Virus record (IMG/VR): IMGVR_UViG_3300025151_000103
Coordinates: 1 to 40,079 of that record
Source of the DNA: a virus
DNA: 40,079 nt
Direction: 5' to 3' (one strand)
Below the pieces are notes generated by a model. It did no database searches, was not told the DNA's origin, and saw only the letters and a program-made list of their open reading frames with translations. Numbering within the stretch: the first letter of the stretch is position 1; each line of letters opens with the position of its first letter. Shown piece by piece: positions 4,622 through 29,200 of this stretch. A program made the translations under genes and the position numbers.

Positions 4622-4630
4622 AAATGCCTT

Positions 4631-4638
4631 TATAAATA
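4631..4638 (+). promoter_or_regulatory. T4-type late promoter motif (orphan)
   Basis: A perfect TATAAATA, the T4 late promoter consensus, lies 10 bases after the preceding stop codon. No gene follows, and a hairpin begins 23 bases downstream. In this A/T-rich spot it may be coincidental. Confidence 0.35.
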
Positions 4639-4660
4639 TACTTTCGTTTTTTATGCCATG

Positions 4661-4700
4661 AGTGACCCCGAAGGTACTGGGTAGTGTCTCCGGGGTTACT
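4661..4700 (+). terminator. Long hairpin, probable terminator or structured RNA
   Basis: AGTGACCCCG (4661-4670) pairs with CGGGGTTACT (4691-4700) with one wobble. Inside it GGTACT and AGTGTC extend the stem around a GGGT loop. A run of six T lies nearby (4709-4714) but not immediately adjacent. It closes the transcription unit that ends at 4621. Confidence 0.55.
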
Positions 4701-4829
4701 TTCATCGATTTTTTGGTTGTTTATGTCTTCTGAAATGTGTCAGGGTCTTGTGGTCTTAGCGCACAAGGTATCAGAAGTCAAGAAATATCAGAAAACCAAA
4801 ATTTTCAAAAATTTATTATATTTTTTCTC

Positions 4830-4858
4830 TTGAAATTCTCGGAGGTTTATGATATAAT
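4830..4858 (+). promoter_or_regulatory. Near-consensus sigma-70 promoter
   Basis: TTGAAA (4830-4835), a spacer of exactly 17 bases and TATAAT (4853-4858) make this one of the two best vegetative promoters in the window. It sits in A/T-rich DNA and would start a transcript near 4865. The next gene starts 365 bases further on and has its own leader. Confidence 0.7.
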
Positions 4859-4966
4859 ATCTCTGTACTTATGACACTTAACAAACTGGCACTGTGACAC
4901 CTCATAGACTGGTATAAGGTCTCACATTCCATCCTAGAACATACAGGGGACAGTCTGTCAAGCGGT

Positions 4967-4990
4967 CCTGTGCCACTTTATAAACTGTCC
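4967..4990 (-). repeat. Inverted copy of the GTGGCACA element
   Basis: Read on the minus strand this gives GGACA, then GTGGCACA (4969-4976 complement), matching the blocks at 1956 and 2706, where GGACA precedes GTGGCACA with a similar gap. No minus-strand gene follows it, so it may be a relic of rearrangement. Confidence 0.5.
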
Positions 4991-5201
4991 TTGATACCAT
5001 TGACAGCGGTTTGTCAAGCACCTGTAACGGATTGAAATAATTATCGCAAGGCAGGTTCGGTGGCGATGTATTGTCGTCCGCACGGTTACCCCACCGCTCT
5101 TCTGATTTCTTATAGTCTACAGGGTCAGCAGCAGAAAACCACCACCAGTGGACAGTTCATCAAACCGGTACAGTTGCTGTGGAATCTGCCCGAATCTGAC
5201 T

Positions 5202-5226
5202 CATTATGGGTTCAGTTCAAACAAAG
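5202..5226 (+). promoter_or_regulatory. -10-like hexamer plus conserved leader, copy 4
   Basis: CATTAT (5202-5207), then GGG and TTCAGTTCAAACAAAG, precede the ATG at 5230. It aligns with the other copies at 671, 2755 and 3041. The alignment places the in-frame ATG at 5206 inside the promoter and leader, so it argues for translation from 5230. Confidence 0.5.
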
Positions 5227-5229
5227 GAC

Positions 5230-5829
5230 ATGACCGCCGACAACATTGCAGCAGTGTTCACACTTGCCACCGCTTCCGAGCGTGCCATCCATGCTACTTG
5301 GTACGATGACGCTCGGGGTGCTGCCATCGCCATCGCTGACGCTACCGGATTGGGTCTGGACACCGTTGTGGGCGTCATTGCTGCGCTGTCACCTAATAAC
5401 CGCTGGCAGCGCAACCTAGTGGACGCTGAGAACCTCTGCCGGACCTTTGTTGCTGACCCTGAGTCTGCTGAGACCGTTAAAGTCTGCACCTATAAAAAGA
5501 TGCTGGCGAAAGCGATTCAGGTGCTTAAGTGTGAAGAACCCGAACAGATCCCCGGTATCTTAAACGGTCGTAAAATCACTTCGTTCTTTCACTGCATTAT
5601 GGGCGATCAGTCTGACGTTTGTGTTGATGGGCACGCTTATTGCATCTGGATTGGTGACAGAATGTCGATGCAGAATGTCCCCAGTATTGGTAAGAAATTG
5701 TACCAAACTATCACTAACGATTACATTCAGGCATGTAAGATTATCAATGCTCGTTATCACCTGAACCTGAAACCTTATCAGATTCAGTCTATCACTTGGA
5801 ACACTTGGAAGCGTATTCATGGCGTGTGA
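5230..5829 (+). CDS. HhH-GPD (endonuclease III)-like protein, putative DNA glycosylase
   Basis: A 199-residue protein. Residues 106-115 (QIPGILNGRK) and 132-135 (VDGH) resemble the helix-hairpin-helix and the catalytic loop of endonuclease III-type DNA glycosylases, LPGVGRK and VDTH. The spacing from K115 to D133 is 18 residues, the same as K120 to D138 in E. coli endonuclease III as I recall it. The N-terminal helix GVIAALSPNNRWQRNLVDAENL also matches the family's first conserved helix (LLSAQT-type). The iron-sulphur cysteine cluster is absent. A role in base excision or in attacking modified or host DNA is inferred. The start at 5230 is fixed by the conserved leader. The gene is G+C-rich compared with the virion genes, hinting at a separate origin. 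Confidence 0.65.
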   Translation: MTADNIAAVFTLATASERAIHATWYDDARGAAIAIADATGLGLDTVVGVIAALSPNNRWQRNLVDAENLCRTFVADPESAETVKVCTYKKMLAKAIQVLKCEEPEQIPGILNGRKITSFFHCIMGDQSDVCVDGHAYCIWIGDRMSMQNVPSIGKKLYQTITNDYIQACKIINARYHLNLKPYQIQSITWNTWKRIHGV

Positions 5830-5839
5830 GGTTCGTGTT

Positions 5840-5868
5840 ACTTAGGGGGACACTTCTTCCCCCTAAGT
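5840..5868 (+). terminator. Strong hairpin after the HhH-like gene
   Basis: ACTTAGGGGG (5840-5849) and CCCCCTAAGT (5859-5868) form a perfect 10-bp stem with a nine-base loop, 11 bases after the stop codon. It is followed by A-rich rather than T-rich DNA, so it may stabilise or process the RNA end rather than act as a classic intrinsic terminator. Confidence 0.6.
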
Positions 5869-6280
5869 GATACTCAAAAACCAAAAAAGTGAATCTTTAC
5901 TTTTTTTCAAAAAAAATCTAAGACCTTAAATCTTTTTTCTTATGAACGATTAGGGGTCTTAAATGTTATCAAGTCTGAATGTTCGTCCTTGATTGTTACT
6001 TAGTGCGACGATCTTCGCCTATCGTTCTTATCTTACCGCACAGAATTGCCGTGTCCATTAAAAGAATCTTAAGATCGGTAGATCCCTTGCGCCGCAGTGG
6101 ATCTCAGCGAGACTCAGGGCGTCAACCTTATGTTAACAACACTTAACAGCAGTTATTTGCGTTTCCTGATATTTCCCCGCCGCCCCCTTAGCGGGTTAAA
6201 AACGGACCGGGAACCTAACCTACAACGAACCAAAAACGCTCGATAGATATCAAAAGAAAAAAAAATTCCTGAGGCCAAAA
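5869..6280. other. Gene-poor interval with hairpins
   Basis: No convincing gene is seen. The DNA is A/T-rich to about 5990 and then mixed. It contains TAAGACC/GGTCTTA arms (from 5920 and 5954) and a possible stem CCCGC/GCGGG (6176-6180 and 6191-6195). A 38-codon frame at 6130-6246 lacks supporting signals. The interval may hold the promoter of the next genes, but no good -35/-10 pair was found. Confidence 0.5.
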
Positions 6281-6448
6281 ATGACTTCCGAAACCCTTGA
6301 AGAGAAAAAAAATTCCAGGCCAGAAAATCCCACTGTACCTCTTGTGCTAAGTCTCGTAGCGTGTCTATGTTTTGCGCTTTCGATAATTGCAGCGGGGTAT
6401 ATTCATGGGCACATGAGTATTGCCGCCGTCTGGAAAAGCCTTCATTGA
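6281..6448 (+). CDS. Small single-pass membrane protein (55 aa)
   Basis: A 55-residue protein with a charged N-terminus (MTSETLEEKKNSRPENP), one hydrophobic segment at residues 19-41 (VPLVLSLVACLCFALSII and onwards) and a short tail ending VWKSLH. It probably sits in the inner or thylakoid membrane with its N-terminus in the cytoplasm. A ribosome-binding sequence GAGG (6271-6274) lies six bases before the ATG. A competing frame from 6361 overlaps it but uses a poorer start. Small membrane proteins are common in cyanophages; the function is unknown. Confidence 0.6.
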   Translation: MTSETLEEKKNSRPENPTVPLVLSLVACLCFALSIIAAGYIHGHMSIAAVWKSLH

Positions 6449-6865: not shown

Positions 6866-7618
6866 ATGGCTAAAGGATTCACAGTAAAAGCAGCATCACC
6901 ATCAACGAAGAAGAAAGAAGATGAGTTTGATATTGCTGCAGCAAGAGAGATGATCAAAGGTAAGGCAATTGTTTTTTGTCTTCCTGGACGAGGAGTATCT
7001 TACACTTATCTGAAGAACTTTGTACAACTGTGCTTTGACTTAGTGCAGAACGGTGCAAGTATTCAGATTTCACAAGATTATAGTTCCATGGTGAACTTCG
7101 CACGATGTAAGTGTCTTGGTGCGAATGTTCTTCGTGGTCCTGATCAGAAACCTTGGGATGGTAAACTTCATTATGATTACCAACTCTGGATTGATAGTGA
7201 CATTGTTTTCAACTTGGAAGCATTCTATCGTTTGGTTGCAATGGACAAGGATATTGCAGCAGGATGGTATTGCACTGAGGATGGTCGAACGACAAGTGTC
7301 GCCCACTGGTTAGATGAAGATAATTTCCGCTCTAATGGCGGTGTGATGAATCATGAGACGTTGGAGTCGATGAGCAAGCGTCGAAAGCCTTTCACTGTTG
7401 ATTACACAGGATTCGGATGGTTGCTGATTAAGAAGGGAGTATTTGAGAGTTTGCCTTATCCCTGGTTTGCCCCGAAGATGCAAGTCTTTGAGTCTGGTGA
7501 AGTGCAGGATATGTGTGGTGAGGACGTTTCGTTCTGTCTCGATGCGATTGAGAAAGGATACGAGATTTGGTGTGACCCGCAAATTCGTGTCGGTCATGAG
7601 AAGACTCGGATTATCTGA
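6866..7618 (+). CDS. Glycosyltransferase-like protein (GT-A fold)
   Basis: A 250-residue protein. The segment YQLWIDSDIVF (about residues 105-115) has the metal-binding DxD motif (D110-S-D112) after a beta strand, as in GT-A glycosyltransferases that use nucleotide sugars. Later parts (TGFGWLLIKKGVF, CGEDVSFCLDAIEKGY, VGHEK) match the acceptor and ED-type catalytic pattern of the fold, where the GEDVSF aspartate or glutamate would be the base. There is no signal peptide. The first 20 residues are basic and low-complexity. It may modify phage or host cell-surface structures; substrate and product are unknown. It has its own vegetative-type promoter. Confidence 0.75.
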   Translation: MAKGFTVKAASPSTKKKEDEFDIAAAREMIKGKAIVFCLPGRGVSYTYLKNFVQLCFDLVQNGASIQISQDYSSMVNFARCKCLGANVLRGPDQKPWDGKLHYDYQLWIDSDIVFNLEAFYRLVAMDKDIAAGWYCTEDGRTTSVAHWLDEDNFRSNGGVMNHETLESMSKRRKPFTVDYTGFGWLLIKKGVFESLPYPWFAPKMQVFESGEVQDMCGEDVSFCLDAIEKGYEIWCDPQIRVGHEKTRII

Positions 7619-7886: not shown

Positions 7887-8561
7887 ATGCCTTGTCTGAT
7901 TGCGAACCTACCTTCCTATGAGGTATGGGTAAGAAAAGAATATCTTACAGACCATCAAAGTGGACATGGCGAATTTGTCAAAGGCGTCTGGGTATCAGTT
8001 AAATCGATACCTGGACGTGCTTTTTATTTTGAGACATACTTACCAGAGTATGCTGCGATGTATGACAAATTGCCTATCAGTGCCTTTGTATCGTCTCCAG
8101 AGATCCCTTCACCTGATATGACGCTTCATAACCTACAGTTTTGGAATTGTATGGACTATGGAGTCACTGTGGTGCAGAAGCAATTTATTGGTTCAATGCA
8201 TTATGAGGTCTACACTCGTGATTTTGGGTCACAAACTGGTACGTATATCTGTACAATCGATAATTATCATCAAGATCCTGATGCAGTTGATTATGCAACC
8301 AGTGAAAATCCATCAGAACATAAGTCACATAATCTAATTGAGTTGGATAATGGGCAGTTCTGCCTCTATCCAAACAATCGAACACGTATTTTTGATAATA
8401 GTTTGACACCAATTGAACCAAAAGTACCCGATTTCAAGGTCTCAACTGTTTATTATCAAGTTGAGAATGGTCATGACCGTGATGGATTGGGAAATGACGA
8501 GAATTATTTCTGGAAAACCGCTAAGGAACAAGAACAAAATGAAGAATCAACCGAGTCATGA
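7887..8561 (+). CDS. Conserved hypothetical protein (224 aa)
   Basis: A 224-residue protein starting MPCLIANLPSYEVWVRKEYL. It is rich in aromatic residues and beta-like, with a charged, Glu-rich C-terminal tail. I recall similar proteins just ahead of the baseplate genes in cyanophages, without function. The position suggests a link to virion assembly, but nothing in the sequence proves it. It does not look like T4 gp53. A TTTATAAAC sequence lies upstream but is not a clean late promoter. Confidence 0.7.
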   Translation: MPCLIANLPSYEVWVRKEYLTDHQSGHGEFVKGVWVSVKSIPGRAFYFETYLPEYAAMYDKLPISAFVSSPEIPSPDMTLHNLQFWNCMDYGVTVVQKQFIGSMHYEVYTRDFGSQTGTYICTIDNYHQDPDAVDYATSENPSEHKSHNLIELDNGQFCLYPNNRTRIFDNSLTPIEPKVPDFKVSTVYYQVENGHDRDGLGNDENYFWKTAKEQEQNEESTES

Positions 8562-11226: not shown

Positions 11227-14200
11227 ATGGCAGATAAAAAGGTAAAAATTGGTAATATTCTGGACAACCTACTGCCAGAATTTGTCAGAACAGATAATCC
11301 ACTTTTTCTTGATTTCCTCAAGCAGTATTATGTTTCTGAGGAGCATGATTATGGATCAATTTATCTTATAGATAATCTTCCTGACTTAAAAAACGTTCAA
11401 TCATTTGCCGAATTAATTATTGGGACAACTAATCCGGCAACTGGTTTGCCTTTTGTTCCAATTGTACTTACTAAGGCATGTCTTCACCTGGATGAAACTA
11501 TTCATGTTAACACTACTATTGGATTTCCCAATCAGTATGGTTTGCTTAGAATTGAAAATGAAGTAATTACATATACTGGAAAAACTGCAACTTCATTTAC
11601 TGGTTGTGTTCGTGGTTTTAGTGGTGTTACGGCTATTGAAACTGCTGGAGACCAAGAATACCTTCAATTTAGCAGAACAGATGTTGATGATCACCCAAAA
11701 GATGCTCTCGTATCAAATTTAAATTTTGTATACCTTCAAGAGTTCTACAGAAAGCACAAAAATCAATTTCTTCCCGGATTTGAAGAAAGAGAGTTTCAAA
11801 ATGTTTCTATTGAAAATATTCTGTCCAGATCAAAAGATTTTTTCAGTTCAAAGGGTACAGAAACAGCATTAAAAATTCTTTTCAACGTTTTATTTGCAAA
11901 ACAAGTTGAAATTGGAAAACCATTTGATCAAACTATAGCGGCATCATCCGCACAATGGGTAAGAACGAATGATATTATTGTTGAAGCAATTACTGGCAAT
12001 CCAAAGAAGTTATTAGCAACTACATTACAACAAGATTCCATATCAAATCCAACAGCATCCGGAGCAGTAGCTGCTGTTGATGAAGTTTTCCTGGGAAGGA
12101 AGAGATATTTTAGAATTTCCTTTTCTGAGGGTTCTATTACCGATAAATTCATAATTAGCAAAAAAACTAAAGTTATTCAAGAAACTGATTCTCTTGAAGT
12201 TGTAACTGTAGACTCCACAATGGGGTTCCCAGAAGCAGGAATGTTTTATTACAATGATGGAGTTGGTACTGTTGATGTTTCATATGCATCAAAGAACTAT
12301 AATCAATTTTTAGGTTGTGTAGGCGTTGGTCTTCCGTTGCAACCTGATCAAGAGATTAGTGATGCAATGTTTGTATATGGATTTGAAAATGGAGATCCTT
12401 CTAAACCGGTAACAATGAGGACTGTCGGAACAGTTCCTGATATTGACAATAAAAACTTAACCAAATTTTTTAAAGAAGGGGATATAATTGGATTAAAATC
12501 ATTTGGTGAAAGATATGAGGAAGATAATCATTTATTTACTAAATGGTTATATAATAATGTTTCCTATATTGATGTTGAAAGTGTAGACACGGGTTCTCTA
12601 CAATTCACTACTAAAGCAAAACACTATATTAATGAATTTGATTCGGTAGATATTCTACTGAAAGATAGTCTGGCAGTTATTGATGAAGATGTTCAAATTT
12701 CTTCTGTTATTGACCCTAAAAGTGTTAGGATTTCCTCTACCACCGGATCACTTAGTGCATCTAACAAGTATGTGCTCAGAAAAAGAATAGCATATGCTTC
12801 TTCAGAATTTGGCGTTGATAGTGGATTTGCTAATATCCAAAACTCATTTGTAGATAATGAAGGTAATGCATACGTTGCATTTAATAGTTTACCATCATAT
12901 CCAGATATACAAGTTTCAAATAGATCAATAGAAGTAAATCCGAGTGATATTGATATCAGTGGCACTGGAAATATAACAATTACTAATCATGGATTTGAAA
13001 ATGGAGAAAGAGTTTATTATAACCCAGCAGCTGATACAAAAGAGAGTTTTAGAGGTGGAACAGATGTTTTTGATGGAACGTATGTAATAAAAAAAGTAGA
13101 CGATAATACAATTAAACTTGGGTTGACATATCCTGCTGTAGAAAACGATAGTTTCATCTCTTTTACAGGAGTAGGAACTGAAAGTCACATCATTACTGCA
13201 GTAGACCTTTATTCATTTGAAAATGACAGAGTAAAAAATCTGGCACCACAGAGTTATTTTAAGAGATTTTTAAAAACTCCAAAAAACCAAATCGAAAATA
13301 ATGACATTGAGGGACCAATTGGAGTTGGATTGAACGGAGTAGAGTTTTACTCTCCTGTTGGAAATGACAGATATTATTTTGGACAAATCGATGAAGTAAA
13401 TGTAATTTCATCTGGAAGTGGTTATAATGTTTTAGCAGTTCCAGAATTTTCTGTATCTGGAGGGGTTGGGTTAACTGCTTTTGCTAATTGTTCAGGAAAT
13501 ATCGATTCTATTAATCTAACATCTGCAGGATTTGATTATGTTGGAACTCCTTCGGTTAAAATTTCAGGAGGGAATGTTTCCGGAACTGTCCTCAAAGCAC
13601 AAATGCGTGGACTGACACATAGTGTGTCAGTTAATGACTTCTCTGTAGATCTTTCTAATAATTTAATTACATTAGCGGATCACAAGTTTTTAAATGCAGA
13701 ACCGGTTACTTACATTGCTACTGGAACACCTATTGGAATCAATAGCACCAACTCATTTGTAGGTTTTGAAACAAATAGACTTTCCTCTGGTTCTACTTAC
13801 TATATTGTAAAAATTGATGAAAATAGATTTTCATTGACATCAACTAAGAATGATGCTGAGAATAAAACAAAATTAATTGACTTCAATAATTTTGGAACAA
13901 AAGATCATACGTTTAGATCTAAAAAAATTAGACGTATAATCGATAGAATTAATGTAATAGAACAAGGAGGAAATATATCTACGAGAAAAGTTGAAATTGA
14001 TTCTCAAGCATATCCTCCTGAGTTTGTGAAAGATGAATTTAAAACTTTTACAGGAATCAATACTCATCAAGATTATATCTTTGCAAAAAATCATGGATTT
14101 TCTGATGGTGAAGTAGTTTCATATAAAACAACTGGTGCAATTAGTGGACTTGATGTCAATTCTGTCTATAAGGTAAAGGTATTAGACATCAATAAATTTA

Positions 14201-17200
14201 AACTGTCTCATGCGGGAACGGCTACGACAATTTCTTCTACAAATTATGATAATGAAGTATATGTTGATATAACCAGTATTGGTTCTGGTATTCATACAGT
14301 TGGTTATCCAGATATTGCAATCACTATTGATGGAATTGTATCAGTTGGTAATACTGATGTAATACCATCATACTACAATGCTAGTGCAACTCCTGTAATT
14401 ACTGGAGGAGTTGATAGTATTTTTATAAAAAATGGTGGAAACTCATTTGGAAATGATGAGTTACTGAATTACAAGAAGAATTTAAATACAAGACTTCTTA
14501 CAGGAAAAGAAGCAGTATTAAAACCACTTATCAACGATTCTGGACAAATTGAAGCAGTATTTGTTTTAGATGGAGGTTCTGAATATACGACTCCACCAAA
14601 AATAGAAGTGATTGGAGATGGTGATTTTGCAGAGGTAGTGGCAACTATCTCCAATGGTAAAATAATATCAGCAACCATCATAAATGGAGGTAAAAACTAT
14701 AAAAGTTCCGATACATTTATTACTGTTACACCTACTGGAGACGGAGCAAAATTTATAACAAATATCCATGAATGGAAAGTTAATAATGTAGAAAGATATA
14801 AACAATTTTTGTCAGGTATAAATGATGACTTTAAATCTAAATCAAGAGATTATATCAGAGTAAAGTCACAGAGATCTGACGATTCAACTACTCTTGCTGG
14901 ATACTATCCAGGAAAATTCTATAGGGAATTGTTAAAGGATAATGTTGACGGTAACTTAGATGAAGAGTCTAATACTGATAATTTAGTTCATTCACCCATT
15001 GTTGGATGGTCATACGATGGAAATCCAATTTATGGTCCATATTCGACTACAAATGCGTTACCAATAGAAGGATCACTTGGTGATGTTAAAAGAATGCAAT
15101 CAAGTTATCTAAAAGATATCATAAATGATGTGAACCTCAGACCAAATAAACCAGAAGGTTTCTTTGATCAAGATTTTATTTACAATTTGAATAGTGGAGA
15201 TCTAGACGAATACAATGGAAGATTCTGCATTACTCCAGAATTTCCAGATGGAAGATATTGTTATTTTTCTACTTTAGATCAATCTTCAGATGTTCCATCA
15301 TACCCTTACATAACTAAAAGACATTACAATTTAAGTGATTTATTTAATTATAATTATTTTTCAGATCAATCTGATAAAAATTTAAACACGGGTGATTATA
15401 GTCGAATGGTAACCCACCTGGGTATTAATGATTCTAATAGAGATTATCCATTTTTGTCTGAGTTTGCAAAATCGAGTCCAGAAATTACTGTTACTTCAAC
15501 AATTGGTTCAAATATAACTGGAATTGATATACTTAAACGTGGGGATAATTACAAAGTTGGAGAAAAAATAAATGTATCTGCAGAAGAAATTGATACAAAT
15601 ATCAGAGAGATTAGAGGTAAAGAAGTTATCTCTATTGTTACATCCGAAACAGAAAAGAATAATTTAAACCTTGCTGTTCTAGATGGAACAGTAACTGCAT
15701 CTTCTTCAACTGCTCATACTTATTCGGATGGAGATGTAATTGAAATTACCGGTGTCTCTACTGGAACATACAAGAATATTGAAGGTTTCTATAAAGTAGG
15801 AGTTTCTTCTGTAACTAGTGTTTTAACAGTTGCGATTGGTGCTACTTCTGCAACTGGAATTGTTACTACAATTACATTACGTGATACACCAGCAAAGAAT
15901 AAATTTGATATTGATGATACAATTGTTATTGGCACTGAAAAAATGAAGATTATTGGTATTGATAGAGTCAATTCCAATTATAGAGTTTCTAGAAAAGAAA
16001 ACGGAATAGAAACTTCACATTCAGCGAGTGCCAATGTGCATAGGGAAGAAGTTTCTTTCACTTTTGATGTAAACAAAAAACTAGATAATGTCAACTATGA
16101 AGTTGGCACTACAGAGTATATTGTCCCTGGAGAATCTCTTGGAATTGGATCTCAATATTCTAATGTGATTGTTGGAACTGCAGGAAGTTTCAATATTACA
16201 AAATCGATTCCACCACAAGCAATTTATATAAGAAATCATGGATTTAAAACTGGAGATGAATTAGAATATGTTTCATTTGCAGGAACAATTACTGGTTCTC
16301 ATCTTGAAGGAGCAGTTGGAATTGGAACTACCGATCCATCTGATTTTGCTAGGTTTGATATTTCAACTTACGATAATCTTTTTGCTGTAAAACTTGGAAC
16401 TGATTATTTGGGTATTACAACAGTAAGAGCAGGAATTGCTACTAACTATCTTCTCTATTGGATTGGACATACTGCAGATGATGCTAAATTTACTAAAAAA
16501 GTTGATAGAATAACAGCTGATTCAAAACGAAGAAATGCCACAGTAACAACTTCGGGTGCTCATGGATTAATTCCTAAAGATAAAGTTACCATAGATGTAA
16601 CTCCAAATATCACTAATAATGTAACATTCAAATATAATGAAAATATGAGGAGACTTATTGTAGATCCTCTTACAATTAATGTTACTGGGGTATCTACCTC
16701 TGGAATAACAACAGATGTTACTTCAGCAATTACAATACAGGATCATGAGTTCAATACTGGTGATGCAGTTTCCTATGTCGCAGGTTCTACAATAATAGGA
16801 GGTTTAGCAACTAATGGTCGTGTTTACTATGCGATCAAATATTCAGATGATAAAATCAGAATTGCTGAAAATTATTCTCAGGCGACTTCATATCCAGCAC
16901 AATATATTGACTTTCCAACAGTTGCAGGATCAGGAACATTTGAACTTGGAAAAGTAGATCCAAAGATTAATATTACAAAAGGAACAAATGTTGCTATTGC
17001 TGTTTCTGACGCATCTTTGTTGAGTTATAATATTAATTTTTATACTGACAAAAATTATAAATCAAGATATGATTCTGCACTCATAAACCGAAATGCAGAT
17101 CCTGGTTCAACTGGGGCAGAGATTAACGTTTCAGTTGCAAGTTCTTTGCCAAAAGTTTTATATTACAAAGTTGAGGGAACTAGCACAAATGCATATAAAA

Positions 17201-20200
17201 CAAAAGATCTTTTTGTTGTAGGTGAATCTAGTTTTAATGTATTCGACTCCAAGTATAATGGTTCTTATGATGTAGTTGGTTCTTCTAGTACTACTTTTAC
17301 TATTAATCTTTCAACCAAAGTAGAAAATTTATCCTACACCAGTTCTGGATTGACAACTGCATATTATCATACTAGTGCCAGTGGTGCTTTTGGTGGAATA
17401 CACTCTTTGAATATTTACAATAAAGGTGAAAACTTAAAATCTCTTCCAGTCGTTACCTCTGTTGCATCATCAACTGGTTCAGGAGCGGAGTTTAAGGTAA
17501 CTTCTGATAATATTGGAACTATACTAGATACCAAGATTATGTTCTCTGGAATTGAAATTCCAGAAGATAAAACTTTAGCACCAAAAGCAGAATCTCAAGT
17601 ACTTCTTACATTAGAAAATAATTTAAAAATATCCACTGTTGGAATTATTACTGGAGGAAAGAATTATAATCAACCACCAAAAATTATAGTTCCAGGTCAT
17701 CCTGACGCAGTATTTGACGTTGAAGTTTTAGGTAATGCTGTGAATAAAGTTATTGTTGTATCTGGTTCTAGTGGTTTAAATGAAACCACTAGGGCAATAC
17801 CGATTAACAATTCAAATGGTCTCCAAGTAACTGGTGCAGTTTCTATTGGAGGAACTGAAAATAGACTGTCAATTAAGTCACCACCTACAACGGGATTTAC
17901 AACTGCAAATCCATTCCCATTCGAGATTGGTGATGAAGTTTTTGTTGAAAATATAGTAATTGATGCAGGTAGTGGTCAGGGATATAATTCTAGCGATTAT
18001 AATTATCGAAATTTCACTATCACTGGAATTAATACCACAAATGGTGCTGAGAGCATTACATACTCGATTGTTGGTATTGCCGTAACTGGTGGAACATTTA
18101 ACAATGCAAGTTCTTTTGGTTCAGTAGTTAAGGTAAGTGATTTAGTATCACTTCAACCACAATTTGAAAAAGCAATTTATAAAAAAGGAGAATTTGTAAC
18201 TAGTCAATCTGGTTCTTCAGCAAAAGTAGTGGAGTTTGATAGTTCAAATGACACCTTAAAGGTAATTGATATTGACGGAAAATTCAAAAGAAATGATGTC
18301 ATTGATGGAAATGCAAGTAACTTTAAATCAACTATAGAATCATTAGTAGAATATGATTTCAATCTTCAAGTTGATAGTACATTTGTAGATGGAAACACAT
18401 GGAGTAATGATACTGGCAAGTTAAACAATAATGATCAAAGATTACACGATAATGATTTCTATCAAAGATTCTCATATGTAATAAGAGGTCCAATTCCATA
18501 TGAAACATGGAGTGAACCAGTAAATAGTCTCGCGCACGTTTCTGGATACAAAAACTTTTCTGAATATGAAATAAGCAACGTATCAATTCCAAAAGTTTCA
18601 GTTGCATCAACTACTTCTGAACTTGCATTAAACTTGGAATTATTAAATTTAGCGTCAGTTCACGAAAGAAACTTTTATGATTTTGTTTCTGAGGTTACAG
18701 ATAATCCAAATTTCTCAAAAGTAGTTAAATTTAATACTAAAGTAATTGCAGATTATAACGAATCAATCTCAAATAAAGTTCTATTGATTGATGATATTAG
18801 TTCTCAATTTAATGGGGTTAGTACAAGCGTTGGTGGTGGAATTACTGGTCTTAGCACTTTTACATTATTAAATGGTGGTAGCAGTATGCTTCATCATGTA
18901 TTTGATCCTTCATCTTCTATTAATACAACAACCAATTTAATCACAATTACCGATCACAATTTCAATACAGGGGAAGAATTACATTATACTCCAAGCACAG
19001 GTAATATTGGTATTGCTGCTACTCACTCAATAGGAATAGGAATTAACACTACCGTTAATCTTCCATCAAAAGTTTATGTGGTTAAAGTAACTGATGATAC
19101 ATTTAGAGTTGCGATGGGATTATCTGAAACTAAATTATCACCACCGCATACAATTGGTTTTACAACTGTTACTGGGGTTGGAGCAACACACAGTCTATCA
19201 GTTGATAATACACTCGCGTTAACTAGGGGAATAATTGCGATTGATAACGTAATTCAGAGTCCTCTTTCACGAAAAGACATATCTGTCTCTCTTTCAAATG
19301 CAGTTGGAATCGGATCAACTGAACTCTTTGTGAATGATCCATCAAAATTTGTTGGAAATGATTTAGTAAAAATTGATGAAGAAATCTTTAGAATTTCTTC
19401 TGTAGGAATTGGTTCTACTAATTCTATGAATGTAGAGCGTGGATATATGGGTACTACCCCTGCTGCTCACTTAGTTGGAGCAGCATTTACCGCACTTTCT
19501 GGAGACTATAGAATTCAAAAAGGAAAAATACACTTTAAAGACGCTCCATATTCATCTAGCACATTTAATGGAAGAATATTCTACAGATTAGATTATGAAA
19601 AGAATAAAGTACTTGATGATATTTCTGAACAGTTTAATGGCACTCAAGATAAATTTGATCTGAAGACAAATGGTGTAGATGCTACCGGAATTAATACCAG
19701 TTTTGGTGCGATCTTAGTCAATAATATCTTCCAGAGACCATTTTACGATGATGTTGGATCACCATTAGCATCTGACTACACATTGCTTGGTGGTAATGTT
19801 GGCGCTGCATCAACAATTGATTTTAGTGGTATTCTTCCAGATGATATACCGAAAGGAGGAATTGTCGATGAAATTTCCCCAGTCACTACAAATCCTGGAT
19901 TAAATTATCAAGTTCCAAGAGCAGGGGCAGCATCAACTGTATTCATTAACAATTCTGGTGCCATAACTGCTGTCGGTATTGCTAGTGATGGCGGTGGTGC
20001 AGGTTACTTAATTCCTCCAAAAATTTCAATTGCATCTACAACTGGAGTTGGTGCAGCAGTAACTGCCATTATAACTGACGGTCTCATAACTTCATTTGAT
20101 GTGGTTTCCGCAGGTAGTGGTTATACTGCTACTTCTCCGCCAACAGTAATTATAACACCTCCAGGACCATATAAAAATTTACCACTTACAGGTGGAAATG

Positions 20201-21657
20201 GATCTGGAGCAACTATAGATGTTACTATAGGAATAGGTGGAACTGTAACTGAATTTGAGATAGCAGACAATGGTAAGGGTTATGAAGTTGGTGACGTTCT
20301 TGAACTTACTGGACTGGAATTCACTGCAGGTGTTTCTACTTCTCCGTTTAAAGTTACAGTTGAATCAAAACATCAAGATAAGTTTGCTGGATGGACATTT
20401 GGTCAACTCTTAGAACTTGATGATTTTAGTAATCAATTCAATGGAATACGAAGAGACTTCTATATAACAAGAACTGAAACTAGCACAGAGTTTTATAGTA
20501 TTATCGCTAGAGATGGATCTGGCATTATACTTCAAAATAATTTGTTAATTTTTATCAACGATGTTCTTCAGAAACCAGGTATTGATTACATATTTAATGG
20601 TGGCACCAAAATTACTTTTACAACTCCTCCTATAGCAAATACTAAATTTAAGGTATATTTCTATACTGGTTCTAGTGCTGATTTTACCAATGAAGATGTA
20701 GATGAATCCATCAAGGTGGGTGATATTTTAAGATTGCAGAAATGGACTAATGGAGTTCCCTCTCAAACAAATAGAACAATTTATGAATTATCTGCTTCTG
20801 ATACTGTAGAAACGGAAACCTATGGTGGAGGTGGTATTGTTGTTGATGGCAATTACTTAAGACCAACTATATGGAGAAAGCAAACCACTGATATGTTTGT
20901 CAATGGTGTAAAAATTTCAAAAGCAAGGAATTACTTAGAACCTGCTATCTTCCCGACTACTAATGCAATCACAAATTTAGAAAATGATGGTACTGAAGTA
21001 TATGTAAAAGATGCTTGGTCTTTTAGTAAAATTGATGATACTCAAGGTACTTTGGATGATATTGTTATTGTTGGAGTTGGAACGACTGGAAACTCTATAA
21101 CTGAAAACATAAATGGTGTTACATTTGCAGGTGACTACGGCATAATTACTGGGATTGTAACATCTACCACTGGAATCAATACAACATCTCCAATGATTGT
21201 GTTTGATGTAATTCCGGATCCAAATATTTTTGAACTTGGGTCTGTCGATCCTAGAAAAATTGCCAGGTCTGGCATTTCTACGGGTGATAAATTTGTTATA
21301 AGTAAAACACTCATAGGTAGCGGAGTCACTGCTCTAGTTGATTCTGTACTAAATCCCTTTGCTGGAGAATCTACCGATTTTATTGATTGTGTATATCATG
21401 CACACAGTGTTGTTCCTATTGGAAATGATACTGTTAGAATTTCGACTAATGTTCAGTCTATAAGTGGAATCAATACTTTGGGTCTCTCAACATATAGTAC
21501 CAGTCATGGTTGCTTTAGTTGGGGTAAAATGAGTTTCTCCAGAGATGCTGGAGTAGCAAAGACATTTACTGCACAAACTGCAAATGGTGAAGCAGGATTA
21601 ACAACTTCTACACACATTAGAAGACGGACTCAAATAAGACTGGCGAATACAGTATAA
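11227..21657 (+). CDS. 7: gp7 giant baseplate wedge protein
   Basis: An uninterrupted frame of 3476 codons, compared with 1032 in T4 gp7. The N-terminus (KIGNILDNLLPEFVR, then NPLFLDFLKQYY) and the place between gp6 and gp8 identify it. Most of the length is beta-rich repeats. Six clear HGF-TG modules lie near residues 587, 818, 955, 1670, 1839 and 2576. Several GSGY/PP modules lie near 723-795, 1108-1178, 2138 and 2908-3028. RG-GT-H modules lie near 90-135 and 2684-2763. Three QFNG modules start near 2519, 2796 and 3064. A YHYH-like stretch YDGNPIYGPY sits at 1263-1272. gp7 probably forms the outer arm of the wedge and may contact receptors or fibres. A late promoter overlaps its stop codon. 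Confidence 0.88.
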   Translation: MADKKVKIGNILDNLLPEFVRTDNPLFLDFLKQYYVSEEHDYGSIYLIDNLPDLKNVQSFAELIIGTTNPATGLPFVPIVLTKACLHLDETIHVNTTIGFPNQYGLLRIENEVITYTGKTATSFTGCVRGFSGVTAIETAGDQEYLQFSRTDVDDHPKDALVSNLNFVYLQEFYRKHKNQFLPGFEEREFQNVSIENILSRSKDFFSSKGTETALKILFNVLFAKQVEIGKPFDQTIAASSAQWVRTNDIIVEAITGNPKKLLATTLQQDSISNPTASGAVAAVDEVFLGRKRYFRISFSEGSITDKFIISKKTKVIQETDSLEVVTVDSTMGFPEAGMFYYNDGVGTVDVSYASKNYNQFLGCVGVGLPLQPDQEISDAMFVYGFENGDPSKPVTMRTVGTVPDIDNKNLTKFFKEGDIIGLKSFGERYEEDNHLFTKWLYNNVSYIDVESVDTGSLQFTTKAKHYINEFDSVDILLKDSLAVIDEDVQISSVIDPKSVRISSTTGSLSASNKYVLRKRIAYASSEFGVDSGFANIQNSFVDNEGNAYVAFNSLPSYPDIQVSNRSIEVNPSDIDISGTGNITITNHGFENGERVYYNPAADTKESFRGGTDVFDGTYVIKKVDDNTIKLGLTYPAVENDSFISFTGVGTESHIITAVDLYSFENDRVKNLAPQSYFKRFLKTPKNQIENNDIEGPIGVGLNGVEFYSPVGNDRYYFGQIDEVNVISSGSGYNVLAVPEFSVSGGVGLTAFANCSGNIDSINLTSAGFDYVGTPSVKISGGNVSGTVLKAQMRGLTHSVSVNDFSVDLSNNLITLADHKFLNAEPVTYIATGTPIGINSTNSFVGFETNRLSSGSTYYIVKIDENRFSLTSTKNDAENKTKLIDFNNFGTKDHTFRSKKIRRIIDRINVIEQGGNISTRKVEIDSQAYPPEFVKDEFKTFTGINTHQDYIFAKNHGFSDGEVVSYKTTGAISGLDVNSVYKVKVLDINKFKLSHAGTATTISSTNYDNEVYVDITSIGSGIHTVGYPDIAITIDGIVSVGNTDVIPSYYNASATPVITGGVDSIFIKNGGNSFGNDELLNYKKNLNTRLLTGKEAVLKPLINDSGQIEAVFVLDGGSEYTTPPKIEVIGDGDFAEVVATISNGKIISATIINGGKNYKSSDTFITVTPTGDGAKFITNIHEWKVNNVERYKQFLSGINDDFKSKSRDYIRVKSQRSDDSTTLAGYYPGKFYRELLKDNVDGNLDEESNTDNLVHSPIVGWSYDGNPIYGPYSTTNALPIEGSLGDVKRMQSSYLKDIINDVNLRPNKPEGFFDQDFIYNLNSGDLDEYNGRFCITPEFPDGRYCYFSTLDQSSDVPSYPYITKRHYNLSDLFNYNYFSDQSDKNLNTGDYSRMVTHLGINDSNRDYPFLSEFAKSSPEITVTSTIGSNITGIDILKRGDNYKVGEKINVSAEEIDTNIREIRGKEVISIVTSETEKNNLNLAVLDGTVTASSSTAHTYSDGDVIEITGVSTGTYKNIEGFYKVGVSSVTSVLTVAIGATSATGIVTTITLRDTPAKNKFDIDDTIVIGTEKMKIIGIDRVNSNYRVSRKENGIETSHSASANVHREEVSFTFDVNKKLDNVNYEVGTTEYIVPGESLGIGSQYSNVIVGTAGSFNITKSIPPQAIYIRNHGFKTGDELEYVSFAGTITGSHLEGAVGIGTTDPSDFARFDISTYDNLFAVKLGTDYLGITTVRAGIATNYLLYWIGHTADDAKFTKKVDRITADSKRRNATVTTSGAHGLIPKDKVTIDVTPNITNNVTFKYNENMRRLIVDPLTINVTGVSTSGITTDVTSAITIQDHEFNTGDAVSYVAGSTIIGGLATNGRVYYAIKYSDDKIRIAENYSQATSYPAQYIDFPTVAGSGTFELGKVDPKINITKGTNVAIAVSDASLLSYNINFYTDKNYKSRYDSALINRNADPGSTGAEINVSVASSLPKVLYYKVEGTSTNAYKTKDLFVVGESSFNVFDSKYNGSYDVVGSSSTTFTINLSTKVENLSYTSSGLTTAYYHTSASGAFGGIHSLNIYNKGENLKSLPVVTSVASSTGSGAEFKVTSDNIGTILDTKIMFSGIEIPEDKTLAPKAESQVLLTLENNLKISTVGIITGGKNYNQPPKIIVPGHPDAVFDVEVLGNAVNKVIVVSGSSGLNETTRAIPINNSNGLQVTGAVSIGGTENRLSIKSPPTTGFTTANPFPFEIGDEVFVENIVIDAGSGQGYNSSDYNYRNFTITGINTTNGAESITYSIVGIAVTGGTFNNASSFGSVVKVSDLVSLQPQFEKAIYKKGEFVTSQSGSSAKVVEFDSSNDTLKVIDIDGKFKRNDVIDGNASNFKSTIESLVEYDFNLQVDSTFVDGNTWSNDTGKLNNNDQRLHDNDFYQRFSYVIRGPIPYETWSEPVNSLAHVSGYKNFSEYEISNVSIPKVSVASTTSELALNLELLNLASVHERNFYDFVSEVTDNPNFSKVVKFNTKVIADYNESISNKVLLIDDISSQFNGVSTSVGGGITGLSTFTLLNGGSSMLHHVFDPSSSINTTTNLITITDHNFNTGEELHYTPSTGNIGIAATHSIGIGINTTVNLPSKVYVVKVTDDTFRVAMGLSETKLSPPHTIGFTTVTGVGATHSLSVDNTLALTRGIIAIDNVIQSPLSRKDISVSLSNAVGIGSTELFVNDPSKFVGNDLVKIDEEIFRISSVGIGSTNSMNVERGYMGTTPAAHLVGAAFTALSGDYRIQKGKIHFKDAPYSSSTFNGRIFYRLDYEKNKVLDDISEQFNGTQDKFDLKTNGVDATGINTSFGAILVNNIFQRPFYDDVGSPLASDYTLLGGNVGAASTIDFSGILPDDIPKGGIVDEISPVTTNPGLNYQVPRAGAASTVFINNSGAITAVGIASDGGGAGYLIPPKISIASTTGVGAAVTAIITDGLITSFDVVSAGSGYTATSPPTVIITPPGPYKNLPLTGGNGSGATIDVTIGIGGTVTEFEIADNGKGYEVGDVLELTGLEFTAGVSTSPFKVTVESKHQDKFAGWTFGQLLELDDFSNQFNGIRRDFYITRTETSTEFYSIIARDGSGIILQNNLLIFINDVLQKPGIDYIFNGGTKITFTTPPIANTKFKVYFYTGSSADFTNEDVDESIKVGDILRLQKWTNGVPSQTNRTIYELSASDTVETETYGGGGIVVDGNYLRPTIWRKQTTDMFVNGVKISKARNYLEPAIFPTTNAITNLENDGTEVYVKDAWSFSKIDDTQGTLDDIVIVGVGTTGNSITENINGVTFAGDYGIITGIVTSTTGINTTSPMIVFDVIPDPNIFELGSVDPRKIARSGISTGDKFVISKTLIGSGVTALVDSVLNPFAGESTDFIDCVYHAHSVVPIGNDTVRISTNVQSISGINTLGLSTYSTSHGCFSWGKMSFSRDAGVAKTFTAQTANGEAGLTTSTHIRRRTQIRLANTV

Positions 21658-23262: not shown

Positions 23263-26200
23263 ATGACCCAGAATACCAATCTAAATGTTTCCCCATATTT
23301 TGATGATTTTAGTGAAAGTAACAACTACAATAAGGTTCTCTTTAAACCTGGATTTCCAGTTCAGTCTAGAGAACTAACGACTCTACAATCAATCTTACAG
23401 AATCAGATTGAGAGATTTGGACAATACTTCTTTAAAGAAGGGTCCATGGTTATTCCTGGTGGAAACTTTTTAGATACTTCGTATTTTGCTGTTCGGATAG
23501 ATCCGCAATTTTTAAATATTCCAGTAAAAGAATATACAAAATATCTTGCGGATAATGAAATTGAAATTGAGGGAGAAACTTCAGGGGTCACTGCTAATGT
23601 GGTCAATAGACTTACTGATGTAGAGTCTGTTGATGGATACGACACTCTTTATATCAAGTATAAAAAATCTGGTCCAGATGGTACAACTAGAGAATTTATT
23701 GATGGAGAAAATCTGATAACAAGATCAGATATCGAATATTCAAATACAAGAATTGTATCTGGTGGTTTATTTGCGAGAACTATCGCATCAGAATCAACTA
23801 AAACTGGTTCTTCTGCATCAATTAGTGAAGGTATTTTCTTTATTAGAGGTTTCTTTGTAAAAGTACCATCTAGTTCAATCATTCTTGATCAATATTCAAA
23901 TAGACCAAGTTATAGAGTTGGTTTGTCCGTAACAGAAGAGATTGTAAGTGCATCATCAGTAAATCAAGATCTCTATGATAATGCTAGAGGATTTTCAAAT
24001 GAATCTGCTCCTGGTGCCGATAGATTTAGACTTTCAGTTGTCCTCACTAAAAAAGAATTAACTGACGCTGAAGACTTAAGTTTCGTCGAGTTAATGAGAG
24101 TTGAGAATGGAAAGAGAGAAGAGTTTGTAGAAAGAACAGAATTTGCTACGTTCAAAGAAGAATTAGCAAGAAGAACATTTGAAGAGTCTGGAAATTATTA
24201 TATAAAACCATTCAAGGTTGAAGTTAGAGAATCTCTGAATGATAGGTTGGGGAACAGAGGATTATACTTTAGTAATCAAGTAACAAAGAATGGAAATACT
24301 CCATCAGACGATATTTACACCATTCAAGTTTCCCCTGGAAAGGCATATGTAAGGGGACATGAAATTGAAACACAATCAACAGTTTCGATTGATGCTGTAA
24401 AACCAAGAACAGTTCGCAGTAAAGAAAATGCGTCTCTTCCAATTAAGATTGGAAATATTGCAAAGGTAGAAAACGTATATGGATCTCCCACTATTGGATT
24501 TGAAAATTATGTAATTAATCTAAAAGATCAAAGATTGGGTTTAGGTAGAACTGAAACAGGCGCTACTATTGGTCACGCAAGAGTATTTGACTACAATGAA
24601 AATAGTCCTGTTGGAGCAGCAACTGCTAGATATGACACTAGACTATATGATGTTGAAACATTTACGAATGTTACCGTTGGCACTGCACTCACTGCCGCCG
24701 AGAGTGCTTACGTAAAGGGCGTTTACAGCGGTTCTAGCGGTTTCTTAGTCAGTGCGGCATCCAATGCCACCATATTGTCATTATCAGGCGTTAGAGGCGA
24801 ATTTCAGTTAAATGAACCATTAGAAATTAATGGCAACTCTGTAGGAAGAAATATTACTGCAGTAAGAAAATTTGATTTTTCTGATGTCAAATCATTACAT
24901 AGAACCGTAGGTGTATCCACGTTTGCTGGAGACGTGGTTTTATCTAGACCAAAACAAGCATTTACAGAAAGATCTAATTTCAGAATTAATCATTCAACTA
25001 AAAAAGTTACATCTACAAGTGTTGCTGACTTTAGATCTCTAGTCAAAGTCGGTGATATTGTTAGATATCCAAAGCAAGCAGGAACTGTTCCAACATTTAA
25101 CAGAGTAACTGCTGTAGCAGCAGGTGAATTGAGTATTGATGCAATTCCATCTGTTACCGGAATTTGCGATGGTACTCTCTCGGAGACTGTAGTTACAAAT
25201 GATTTTGATGTCATTACTGGTGCATTACAACAGTCCGATAAACCTGGTTATAGGATACCCCTTCCAAACAGATATATTTCTTCAATCAATCTTTTAGATA
25301 GTACTTATATTGTAAGAAAGCAGATATCTAAAAACATAACCAGTGCAGTAGAATTTACCTTTAATATTTCCGACCTTGGAGATAATGATTTAAAATTTGA
25401 ACCATATACAAGTTCTACTTACACTCTGACTTGGGAAGAGGGACAAATTGAAGTTTTACAAGATGCTCAAGTTACTCTAAACAACGATCTAACAACAGTA
25501 ACATTTAGAGGATTATCTAGAACAGGAAATGGAACATTAACATTTACTGCGAAAAGAACAAAACTTCTTTCTAAAACAAAATCAATCAAAAGATGTGAAG
25601 AAGTTATCATAAACAGATCTAAGTTATCAGGAGCAGGCATAGGGGCAACTACGTTTAATAACGGACTTAACGGTCCAAATCAAAATGGTGGTGCAGACTT
25701 CCCATATGGAACTAGAGTAGAAGATCAAGAAATTTGTTTAAACTTTCCAGAGATTTATAGAGTTCTTGGTGTTTTCCAATCAAGTGGAGTCGGTGAGGCA
25801 ACACTTCCTTCATTCACTTCTTCAAGTCAATCCTCCGTATTTACCAATAATGTTGTAGTTGGAGAACAAATAATAGGTGCATCCTCTGGATCTGTAGCAA
25901 GGGTTGTCGAAGTTACTAATTCTTCAAAAGTGGAGTTTGTCTATGAAAATGAGAAAGCATTTGAAATAGATGAATCATTTACTATGATGACTTCTGGAAT
26001 TGTTGGAACAATAGGTTCCATTGTCATTGGCGATCCTAATATTGGAGATTCATATACTTTAGACAAAGGACATAGAGAAGATCATGTAGATTTTGGTAGA
26101 ATTATTAGAAAAGATGGCATACAAGAACCTACACGACAACTTAAAATTATTCTCGACAGGTATGAAACAAATGAAAGTGTTGGAACTGTTGAAAGTGTAA

Positions 26201-29200
26201 ACAGTTATAATGGATTAAATTACACTAAAGAAATTCTAAATGTTATTGATATGTCAGCAAATGATTTTATCGATATTCGTCCAAGAGTTTCTCCATATTC
26301 TACATCAAGCACGAAGTCACCATTTGATTTTGATTCAAGATCATTTGTAGCGTCTTCTTCAGAAACAATTGTTTCAAATAAAACTGTTGTTCTTGATTAT
26401 AGTTACTATCTTGGAAGAACAGATAGATTATATTTGCTGAGAGATGGTACGTTTGAATTAATTAAAGGAGTTCCATCTGAAAATCCAAAAGCTCCAGTCA
26501 AAAATGATGAAGCAATGGAAGTTGGCATCCTTTATATGGATCCATATATTTTTGATGCCAAAGAAAATTCCAGATTAAAATTGACCCCACACAAACGATA
26601 TACCATGAAGGATATCGGTGTGTTAGAAAGTAGAATTAAAAATCTTGAAGAATACACCACTCTTTCTCTATTAGAGACAGACACAAAAAATTTACAAATT
26701 AAAGATTCAAATACAGGATTAGATAAATTTAAATCTGGATTCTTTGTTGACAATTTTAAAGGACACTTGAATCACAATCTTCGTGGGGATTCATTCTTTG
26801 ATATAGACAGAACAAAGAGAGAATGTAGACCAAGGTCAACTGAGAGAAATGTTTCACTGGGATTTGAAACAGTAACTACTATTGCAGATCCAGTAAATGC
26901 TGACTATGCTTGGGCAGAAGATTTTGAAGATTCAAACATTACCAGAAGTGGCCCTGGTCTTACTCTTAATTATGAAGAAGTGGAATACATCGATCAACCA
27001 CTTGCAACAAGGACAGAGAACCTCAATCCATTCCACATTACTCTCTTCACTGGAGTAGTAACTTTAACTCCAGAATCTGATTTCTGGGTAGAAGAAAATG
27101 TTCTTGATGTTTCAAATTCAACAGAAATTGATAGTGCTTTCCAAGCGATTGCAGATTTGCTTGGCGTTGATGATCGTGAAAATGGTGGAATGGCATCAAG
27201 TATTTGGAACACAAGTGATATTTCTTGGAATGGGCAAGAATTAATTTCTGAGGAAACTGTTCGTGATGAGGTTATCCGTCAAGAAAACAATACTTGGTTA
27301 GCAAGTGGAGGAGGTAGAAGACCATGGTGGACAACTACCACGACCACAAGAAGTACAGATGTTCTCCAAACATTTGAAACTACTGGTTTAGAAACTATCA
27401 CTGGACTAGAATTAACTTCTACAGATCAGTTAACTAGTCTTGGCAACACAGTTGTAAGCACAGAAACTATATTTACTGTTAGGTCTAGAAATATTGAATT
27501 AAATGCAACTAATTTGAAACCGAATACAAGATATTATGTTTTCATGGAAAACGTGGACATGAATGCGTATGCGGTTCCTAAGAGATTGCCAATTACAATG
27601 ACTACTGGATCATTTGTTTCGGGAGAAATTATTGAGTCCGTAGACTTCTTCTCTGGAGTAGCCAGGTCTTTACCATCAGCAGATTCCGCAAGAATTATTG
27701 CTAGAGTTGCACAAGCAGATCATAAAATTGGTCCGTTTAATGCTCCAACACAAACTTATGGTGACTTATCCTCTACTTATTCTAATACGAGTAGTGTATT
27801 GAATATTGATACTGCCGATCTTGCTCTATTAACAAGACCAGATCGTTTAGGTTGGGTAAGACCAGGACAAGTGCTTGCTTCCCGTAGTGGACAATGTGTT
27901 GTCAATAACATCGAATTGATGACTGATGACACCGGAACACTTATTTTCTCATTACATATTCCAGATCCAACTAATCGTTCCAATCCTCGTTTCTCAACTG
28001 GGTCGAATAATATAACAATTACGACAAGTCCAACGAATGCATCAATTCTTGATCCAGGAGAAAGTAAAGTCAATGTTACATATCAATCAAGTGGAATCAG
28101 ACAAAATTTAGAAGAACAAATTCTTTCTATCAGACAACCACAAGTTCAAGAGCAAATTATTCTTGAAGATCAACCGGTCTCACAAATTACTGAAAGTCTT
28201 GAAGAAAATATTATTGTACAAGACACAAATACAGCAGTCTCTGGATGGTTTGACCCGTTAGCACAATCATTCTTTGTGAATACAGAACAAGGAAGCGATG
28301 GTGTCTTCATTACAAGTGGAGATGTTTATTTTAGGTCTAAAGATCCAGATATTCCTGTGACTGTTCAAATTAGAACTATGAGAGATGGTTCTCCAACAAA
28401 TACTGTCGTTCCCTTTGGAGAAACTCAATTGCAACCTGATGAGGTGCTTCTTTCTCAAGATGGTTCTGTTGCTACTAGATTTACGTTTAGTACACCAGTC
28501 TATTTGCAGAGTGGAACTGAATATGCTCTTGTGCTCATATCTCCAACTTCCAAGTATCTGACATATATTACTAGAATGGGTGAAGTTGATTTGCTTCTTA
28601 ACTCTGTTTACAACAGACAACCATATCTTGGTTCTCTGTTCAAATCACAAAATAATACAACTTGGGATGCTTCTCAGTTAGAAGATTTGAAATTTAAGTT
28701 ATTCAAAGCAAAATTCCCTGTTAATACTCCATCTACGGTTATATTCTATAATAATGAACTGCCTATGGGCAAAATTAGAAAGAGTGATCCATTAACAGTA
28801 TATTCTAAGAGACAAACTATTTCAATTGCTGCAACTACATCAGAATTTGCACAAGGAACCACAATGATTCAGGGATCTTCTTCTAGAAGTGGCAATGTAT
28901 TCTCTTCTGGTGGTCCTGTTGATATGGTCAATGCCACAACTTCTCTGACATTAACTGGTGCTGGAATTGGTATTCCTGAAGGAACATTTACTGGTATTGG
29001 ATTTACTACACTTTCAGGAAATGGTTCTGGTCTCGAAGTAACTCTCAATACCACTGTTGCAACTGGAGTTGGAACCATAACTGTTACCAATGGTGGAAGT
29101 GGTTATCAAGTCGGTGATTTACTTCTTAGTAATAAAATTGGCGACAGTGGAAGTGGAGCAAGAGTAACAGTTGGTATAGTTACTATGACAAATAAAATTA

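Follow-up and report, generated by a model that had tools for sequence, protein, structure and literature searches.

The window analysed here, the complete 40,079-nucleotide stretch of IMG/VR virus record IMGVR_UViG_3300025151_000103, derives from a T4-like cyanomyovirus that encodes gp25, gp6, gp8, neck, gp15 and terminase genes and is closest to S-SSM7-type phages, and it raises the question of what is encoded by an isolated gene of the variable region that precedes the gp25-gp6 block. A preliminary description had proposed a helix-hairpin-helix (HhH) DNA glycosylase resembling endonuclease III. Our analysis supports and sharpens this interpretation, with structure predictions pointing to a virus-specific OGG-type HhH-GPD protein of the family DUF7178. 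Neither of the two outcomes that the description had named as refuting it, a predicted fold of another architecture or free variation of the two putative catalytic residues, was obtained. Related uncultured contigs keep a DUF7178 gene at the same place, and S-SSM7 has small ORFs there instead.

The sequences flanking the gene (4622-5205 and 5830-6360, approximately 580 and 530 bp) contain no ORF of 60 aa or more. Such long ORF-free stretches are unusual in a compact phage, and a similar-sized gap follows the gene in the related locus L001 (1087-1644). Directly 3' of the gene lies a plus-strand inverted repeat (5835..5873; 16-nt arms, 7-nt loop), a candidate 3' hairpin of the transcript that is not followed by a T-run; one of its arms (TGTTACTTAG) recurs at 5994. 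Scans of the surrounding sequence for Rfam families, tRNAs, promoters and terminators returned nothing of note and no clear terminator, and a scan against a defence library was negative. Further downstream, 6866-7618 encodes phrog_1574 ('unknown function'), which is kept in approximately 100 cyanophage records, some naming it 'glycosyltransferase', and lies near gp25/gp6 in the compared loci, while 7887-8561 encodes phrog_3704, labelled ferredoxin and categorized as auxiliary metabolic or host takeover gene. The tail/baseplate region contains ORFs of 3476 aa (YHYH domain; 11227-21657) and 2430 aa (DUF4815; 23263-30555).

The ORF itself (5206..5829, plus strand) is open, ends in a stop codon and translates into 207 aa. 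The gene had been placed at 5230-5829; the ORF opens at 5206 and position 5230 is an internal ATG (M9) that would yield a protein of 199 aa. This ATG may be the true start, because the relatives in L002 and L024 start at the position corresponding to M9. Since residues had been counted from 5230, the previously described K115 and D133 are K123 and D141 of the 207-aa ORF. Relatives with the same synteny (L001-L003 and L039-L041) are 72-88% identical to the window protein, and strong purifying selection acts on the gene, with dN/dS values of 0.08-0.15 when the window copy is paired with each of five close relatives and of 0.07-0.16 across all pairs, from which it follows that the protein is real and constrained.

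The window protein belongs to DUF7178 (PF23802; E 1.4e-44, with residues 6-202 scoring 152.8 bits where the curated cut-off is 27) and also matches phrog_3842 (1.1e-57), both of which are filed as 'unknown function'. Relatives are present in 124 phage records, most of them named 'hypothetical'. Some records label members of the family 'glycosylase', 'N-glycosylase' or 'N-glycosylase/DNA lyase' (S-CRES3 gp63, Cece 22 and Kumao 115), and the glycosylase idea is thus not wholly new, nor is the protein 'cryptic' as originally described. A literature search found no paper naming DUF7178 and no characterization of any member. The family is virus-restricted: it occurs on at least 583 viral contigs, in 2 of 84,980 cellular genomes (a lower bound from a pattern search), above the cut-off in 1 of 386 cyanobacterial genomes and on none of the plasmids searched. 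The named cyanophage relatives among the matches are not T4-like myoviruses, and the window copy represents an uncultured T4-like cyanomyovirus lineage. The homologue in Cyanophage NATL2A-133 (GU071104.1, 41663-42255) may be interrupted by a frameshift or sequencing error, because it matches in two pieces on two annotated ORFs. Gp111 of Tunturiibacter phage Tunturi_3 (L151:4953-5549), named 'portal protein' in its record, was considered as a fusion and rejected; it is a solo DUF7178 protein of 198 aa that has the characteristic K, D and Q-x3-W, and the preceding gene is annotated as an ATP-dependent DNA ligase.

Judging by its AlphaFold2 model (pLDDT 94.2, pTM 0.88; 53 aligned sequences), the window protein very probably adopts the two-domain HhH-GPD fold, its best PDB matches in Foldseek being HhH-GPD glycosylases. 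The top matches are the 8-oxoguanine glycosylases MjaOgg (3knt; prob 1.00, TM 0.51) and TmOgg (3n0u; prob 0.98-1.00, TM 0.48-0.52), followed at lower probability by Deinococcus EndoIII-3 (DR EndoIII-3), AGOG and mouse OGG1. A second model, led by a Nostoc homologue with 30% identity (pLDDT 92.7), has AGOG with 8-oxoguanosine (1xqp) as its best PDB match (prob 1.00), although the second alignment has most rows in common with the first, which makes the models partly dependent on each other. The convergence of both model queries on 8-oxoguanine glycosylases carries the weight of this predicted assignment. From these matches it follows that the nearest relatives would be OGG enzymes and not endonuclease III, so that of the proposed likeness to the latter the predicted fold stands and the particular enzyme does not. 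The relation to OGG enzymes is remote, since the Foldseek E-values are weak (0.02-0.04 within an overall range of 0.02-0.3) and TM is approximately 0.5.

Profile-profile comparison with hhalign gave a score of 27.7 against Ogg2 and 31.6 against Nth, compared with maxima of 18.6 and 22.4, respectively, among 60 column-shuffled controls each, and reversed controls also scored lower; absolute probabilities were low (7-27%). In these alignments K and D are in register with Nth, and D and W with Ogg2. The MjaOgg sequence used agrees over its full length with PDB 3fhf, and the Nth set contains a provisional E. coli row. No match was obtained to MutY-type proteins, and a closer alignment (A3) matched none of the sets. 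Sequence-profile searches found no match to PF00730, Ogg-HhH (PF22175) or any HhH-GPD structure, and a profile search with the window protein returned only DUF7178 at E up to 1; as a positive control, MjaOgg itself scores 236.6 bits on PF22175.

Conservation was counted over 105 distinct homologous domain copies, and both residues put forward as catalytic are invariant. K123 (5572..5574; 105/105), the predicted Schiff-base nucleophile, sits in predicted helix 122-131 and is paired by hhalign with the catalytic lysine of Nth. D141 (5626-5628; 105/105), the predicted catalytic aspartate, opens predicted helix 142-149 after the HhH and is followed at D+2 by H143 (5626..5634 for the pair), which is His in 100 copies and Trp in five. 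Equally invariant are A144, F127 (K+4; 5584..5586), which would form a base-stacking face, and Q194 and W198 on the last helix (5785..5799), a predicted base-recognition pair with a spacing of four residues in every copy. The mapping of F127, Q194 and W198 onto OGG pockets is a prediction from position and spacing. An N-terminal pair, W32-Y33 (5299..5304; W in 103 and Y in 104 of 104 copies), possibly contributes to the pocket wall. In the loop S62-P63-N64-N65-R66-W67...N70 (5389..5415), S62, P63, W67 and N70 are invariant; by position, this loop may be the equivalent of the DNA-wedge loops S-A-Q41 of EndoIII, SNNN of hOGG1 and T-A-N of MjaOgg.

The individual motifs of the preliminary description were located where it had put them, with IAALSPNNRW at residues 58-67, K123 within GRK and D141 within VDGH. 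The 18-residue K-D gap is true of the window copy, but the family ranges from 17 to 21. The comparison of QIPGILNGRK with LPGVGRK fails at its PG, which sits at K-7/K-6 and not at K-5/K-4 and is therefore out of register; P116 and G117 are also unconserved (P in 7/105 copies, G outside the six commonest residues). The predicted HhH (5539..5598; helices 112-119 and 122-131, turn N120-G121) is degenerate: its conserved pattern is I-L-x-G-x-K, and relative to the canonical G-h-G hairpin it keeps L119-x-G121 and lacks the first glycine. The translation lacks a four-cysteine [4Fe-4S] cluster, consistent with the earlier reading. The C-terminal lysine that serves Ogg2 as its 8-oxoguanine sensor is present in just 11/105 copies, and the window protein ends in Val; 56/105 copies end nine residues past the Trp, like MjaOgg. 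Several members, the window protein among them (charge +1, pI 7.6), carry a net charge close to zero. Six-frame translation of the window contains a single motif of the type G.K, 15-19 residues, [VIL]D.[HW], compared with a mean of 0.04 in 100 base shuffles.

Across the family, the gene tends to lie close to genome ends. It is located within 7% of a record end in 26 of 35 sampled records, which include related phages and so are not 35 independent cases; of the remaining records, several are circular, permuted or partial. It is one of the first few genes in ICBM1, P12053L, CRP-1 and A-4L, and cyanopodoviruses have it upstream of the phage RNA polymerase gene. Microbacterium phage Cece and Rhodococcus phage Francesca carry it within identical direct terminal repeats of at least 12.4 kb and at least 4.6 kb, respectively. 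Genes for Lsr2-like DNA-bridging proteins adjoin or lie near it in L029, L035, L157 and L158; these neighbours occur in terminal repeats of two unrelated actinophage groups, and a SprT-like protease gene is also close by in Cece. Virus Rctr197k encodes a protein over 1,900 residues long that combines InPase, two DUF7178 copies, both with intact catalytic residues, and a 2H phosphoesterase domain. InPase and 2H domains have been named among phage-type polyvalent proteins, which are injected early effectors, and glycosylases are not mentioned there (PMC5512222). A search from the Rctr197k domain found no other contig with such a fusion, and other large phage proteins gave weaker structural matches to the DUF7178 fold.

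These contexts suggest that DUF7178 proteins act in the entry phase of infection. A minimal OGG-type protein would flip a base, most likely oxidized guanine, out of DNA, sandwich it between F127 and W198 and read its edge with Q194; K123, assisted by D141, would attack C1', and the strand would then be nicked by beta-elimination (AP lyase). At the start of infection, such an enzyme would most simply rid the incoming phage genome of 8-oxoguanine-type lesions ahead of replication, with gap filling left to host repair enzymes. DUF7178 proteins are probably active glycosylases/lyases, and the chances are about even that their target is a base of the oxidized-guanine type. The complete account, an entry-phase OGG-type glycosylase/AP lyase that repairs the entering genome, is at best slightly favoured, its purpose being the weakest step. 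Early action and expression are proposed because of gene position, and the window gene lies in no obviously early cluster, which counts against this account, as do the profile misses, the weak Foldseek and hhalign values, the degenerate hairpin, the absent Ogg2 lysine and the near-zero charge.

The same fold and chemistry could instead serve host takeover or counter-defence early in infection, by excising a host-specific modified or lesion base from host DNA or the DNA of competing elements or by removing a mark used in defence. This unlikely alternative draws on the position of DUF7178 among the first genes of linear genomes, the terminal repeats of two unrelated actinophage groups with adjoining or nearby Lsr2-like genes, and its presence next to InPase and 2H phosphoesterase domains in a polyvalent-type protein, polyvalent proteins being effectors that are injected and act early (PMC5512222). 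However, early repair of the entering genome accounts for the gene position equally well, and the strictly conserved pocket residues agree with 8-oxoguanine enzymes. Furthermore, the hosts comprise cyanobacteria, roseobacters, actinobacteria and flavobacteria, for which no common host modification is known, and a broad-specificity lyase would harm phage DNA too. It is likewise rather doubtful that DUF7178 constitutes a fourth, virus-only OGG-like subfamily for takeover or counter-defence at DNA entry, whose target would be a guanine-type base, either of host DNA or within a signal used in defence.

Reuse of the HhH-GPD scaffold as an N-glycosidase of free or signalling nucleotides, as in the queuosine salvage enzyme DUF2419, would fit the degenerate hairpin, the near-neutral charge of several members, a weak structural match to DUF2419 (7u07/7u5a; prob 0.16-0.23) and the fusion with InPase and 2H domains. 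We consider it quite improbable, since an invariant lysine is the defining mark of DNA glycosylases of the lyase type, the S-P-N-N loop looks like a DNA wedge, and AGOG, which also has a non-canonical hairpin, nonetheless acts on DNA (PMC3397491). Base hypermodification of phage DNA by an HhH-derived, pyrophosphorylase-like enzyme acting without excision is very improbable. HhH-derived phage modification enzymes have been proposed, but no hypermodification genes are annotated beside the DUF7178 gene in the loci inspected, and in most phages the gene stands alone. A chance motif match in an unrelated all-helical phage protein, for which the missing sequence-profile match to HhH-GPD families would speak, is just as improbable and already largely refuted by OGG enzymes topping the matches of both models, profile scores above all shuffles and the invariant catalytic pair.

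Under the preferred reading of an entry-phase OGG-type glycosylase, a family on at least 583 viral contigs and in 124 phage records would move from 'unknown function' to a concrete chemistry assigned to individual residues. Its occurrence among first-entering genes, in terminal repeats and in a polyvalent-type protein raises the question of why an oxidized-guanine-type glycosylase should be present at entry across such different hosts. If the repair purpose is true, oxidation of the packaged genome would be a real selective pressure; if not, DUF7178 would represent a novel type of enzyme for takeover or counter-defence by phages.

Regarding known systems, the T4 endonuclease V-type pyrimidine dimer glycosylases presumably form a different family from DUF7178. 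Such enzymes are carried by cyanophages (PMC9964418, PMC11288001). The anti-phage glycosylases Brig1 and Brig3 were set aside as kin, as they belong to the uracil-DNA-glycosylase superfamily (PMC13160076). With Nth, the window protein shares the K-D spacing of 18, the position of the S-A/P-Q/N wedge loop and the top hhalign score among the three sets; it differs in lacking [4Fe-4S] cysteines, and the structural match is weaker than that to OGG enzymes. AGOG (Pa-AGOG, 1xqp), the best match of the second model, likewise has a non-canonical hairpin, but its K-D spacing is 32 compared with 17-21 in DUF7178.

Further close parallels are found in Ogg2 (MjaOgg 3fhf/3knt, TmOgg 3n0u, PF22175) and OGG1. 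In MjaOgg, catalysis is carried out by K129 and D147, and 8-oxoguanine is sandwiched by H133 (K+4) and W198 (PMC3397491, PMC5069365), with D194 four residues ahead of W198 (PMC3397491); the same roles are played by Q315 and F319 in hOGG1 and by D218 and W222 in AGOG (PMC3397491, PMC5069365). K123 is the predicted equivalent of K129 of MjaOgg, K249 of hOGG1 and K120 of EndoIII, and F127 corresponds by position to H133 of MjaOgg and C253 of hOGG1. Likeness to Ogg2 extends to length (207 aa), the predicted two-domain helical fold, the lack of an Fe-S cluster, the K-D spacing of 18 in the window copy, D-x-H, a K+4 residue toward the base and a Trp four residues past Q/D194 on the last helix. In contrast, identity in the structural match is approximately 14% without an HMM match, Q194 and F127 replace D194 and H133, the C-terminal lysine sensor is absent from the window protein, the hairpin reads L-x-G-x-K instead of G-I-G-x-K, and DUF7178 is virus-restricted. 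The D+2 histidine of hOGG1, H270, has a Trp counterpart, W243, in CacOGG1 (PMC3397491), and DUF7178 shows the same His/Trp alternative; Q-x3-aromatic is also common to OGG1 and DUF7178, which lacks the OGG1 A-domain. Within the family, the DUF7178 proteins of phages, S-CRES3 gp63, Cece 22 and Kumao 115 among them, have all catalytic and pocket residues in common with the window copy.
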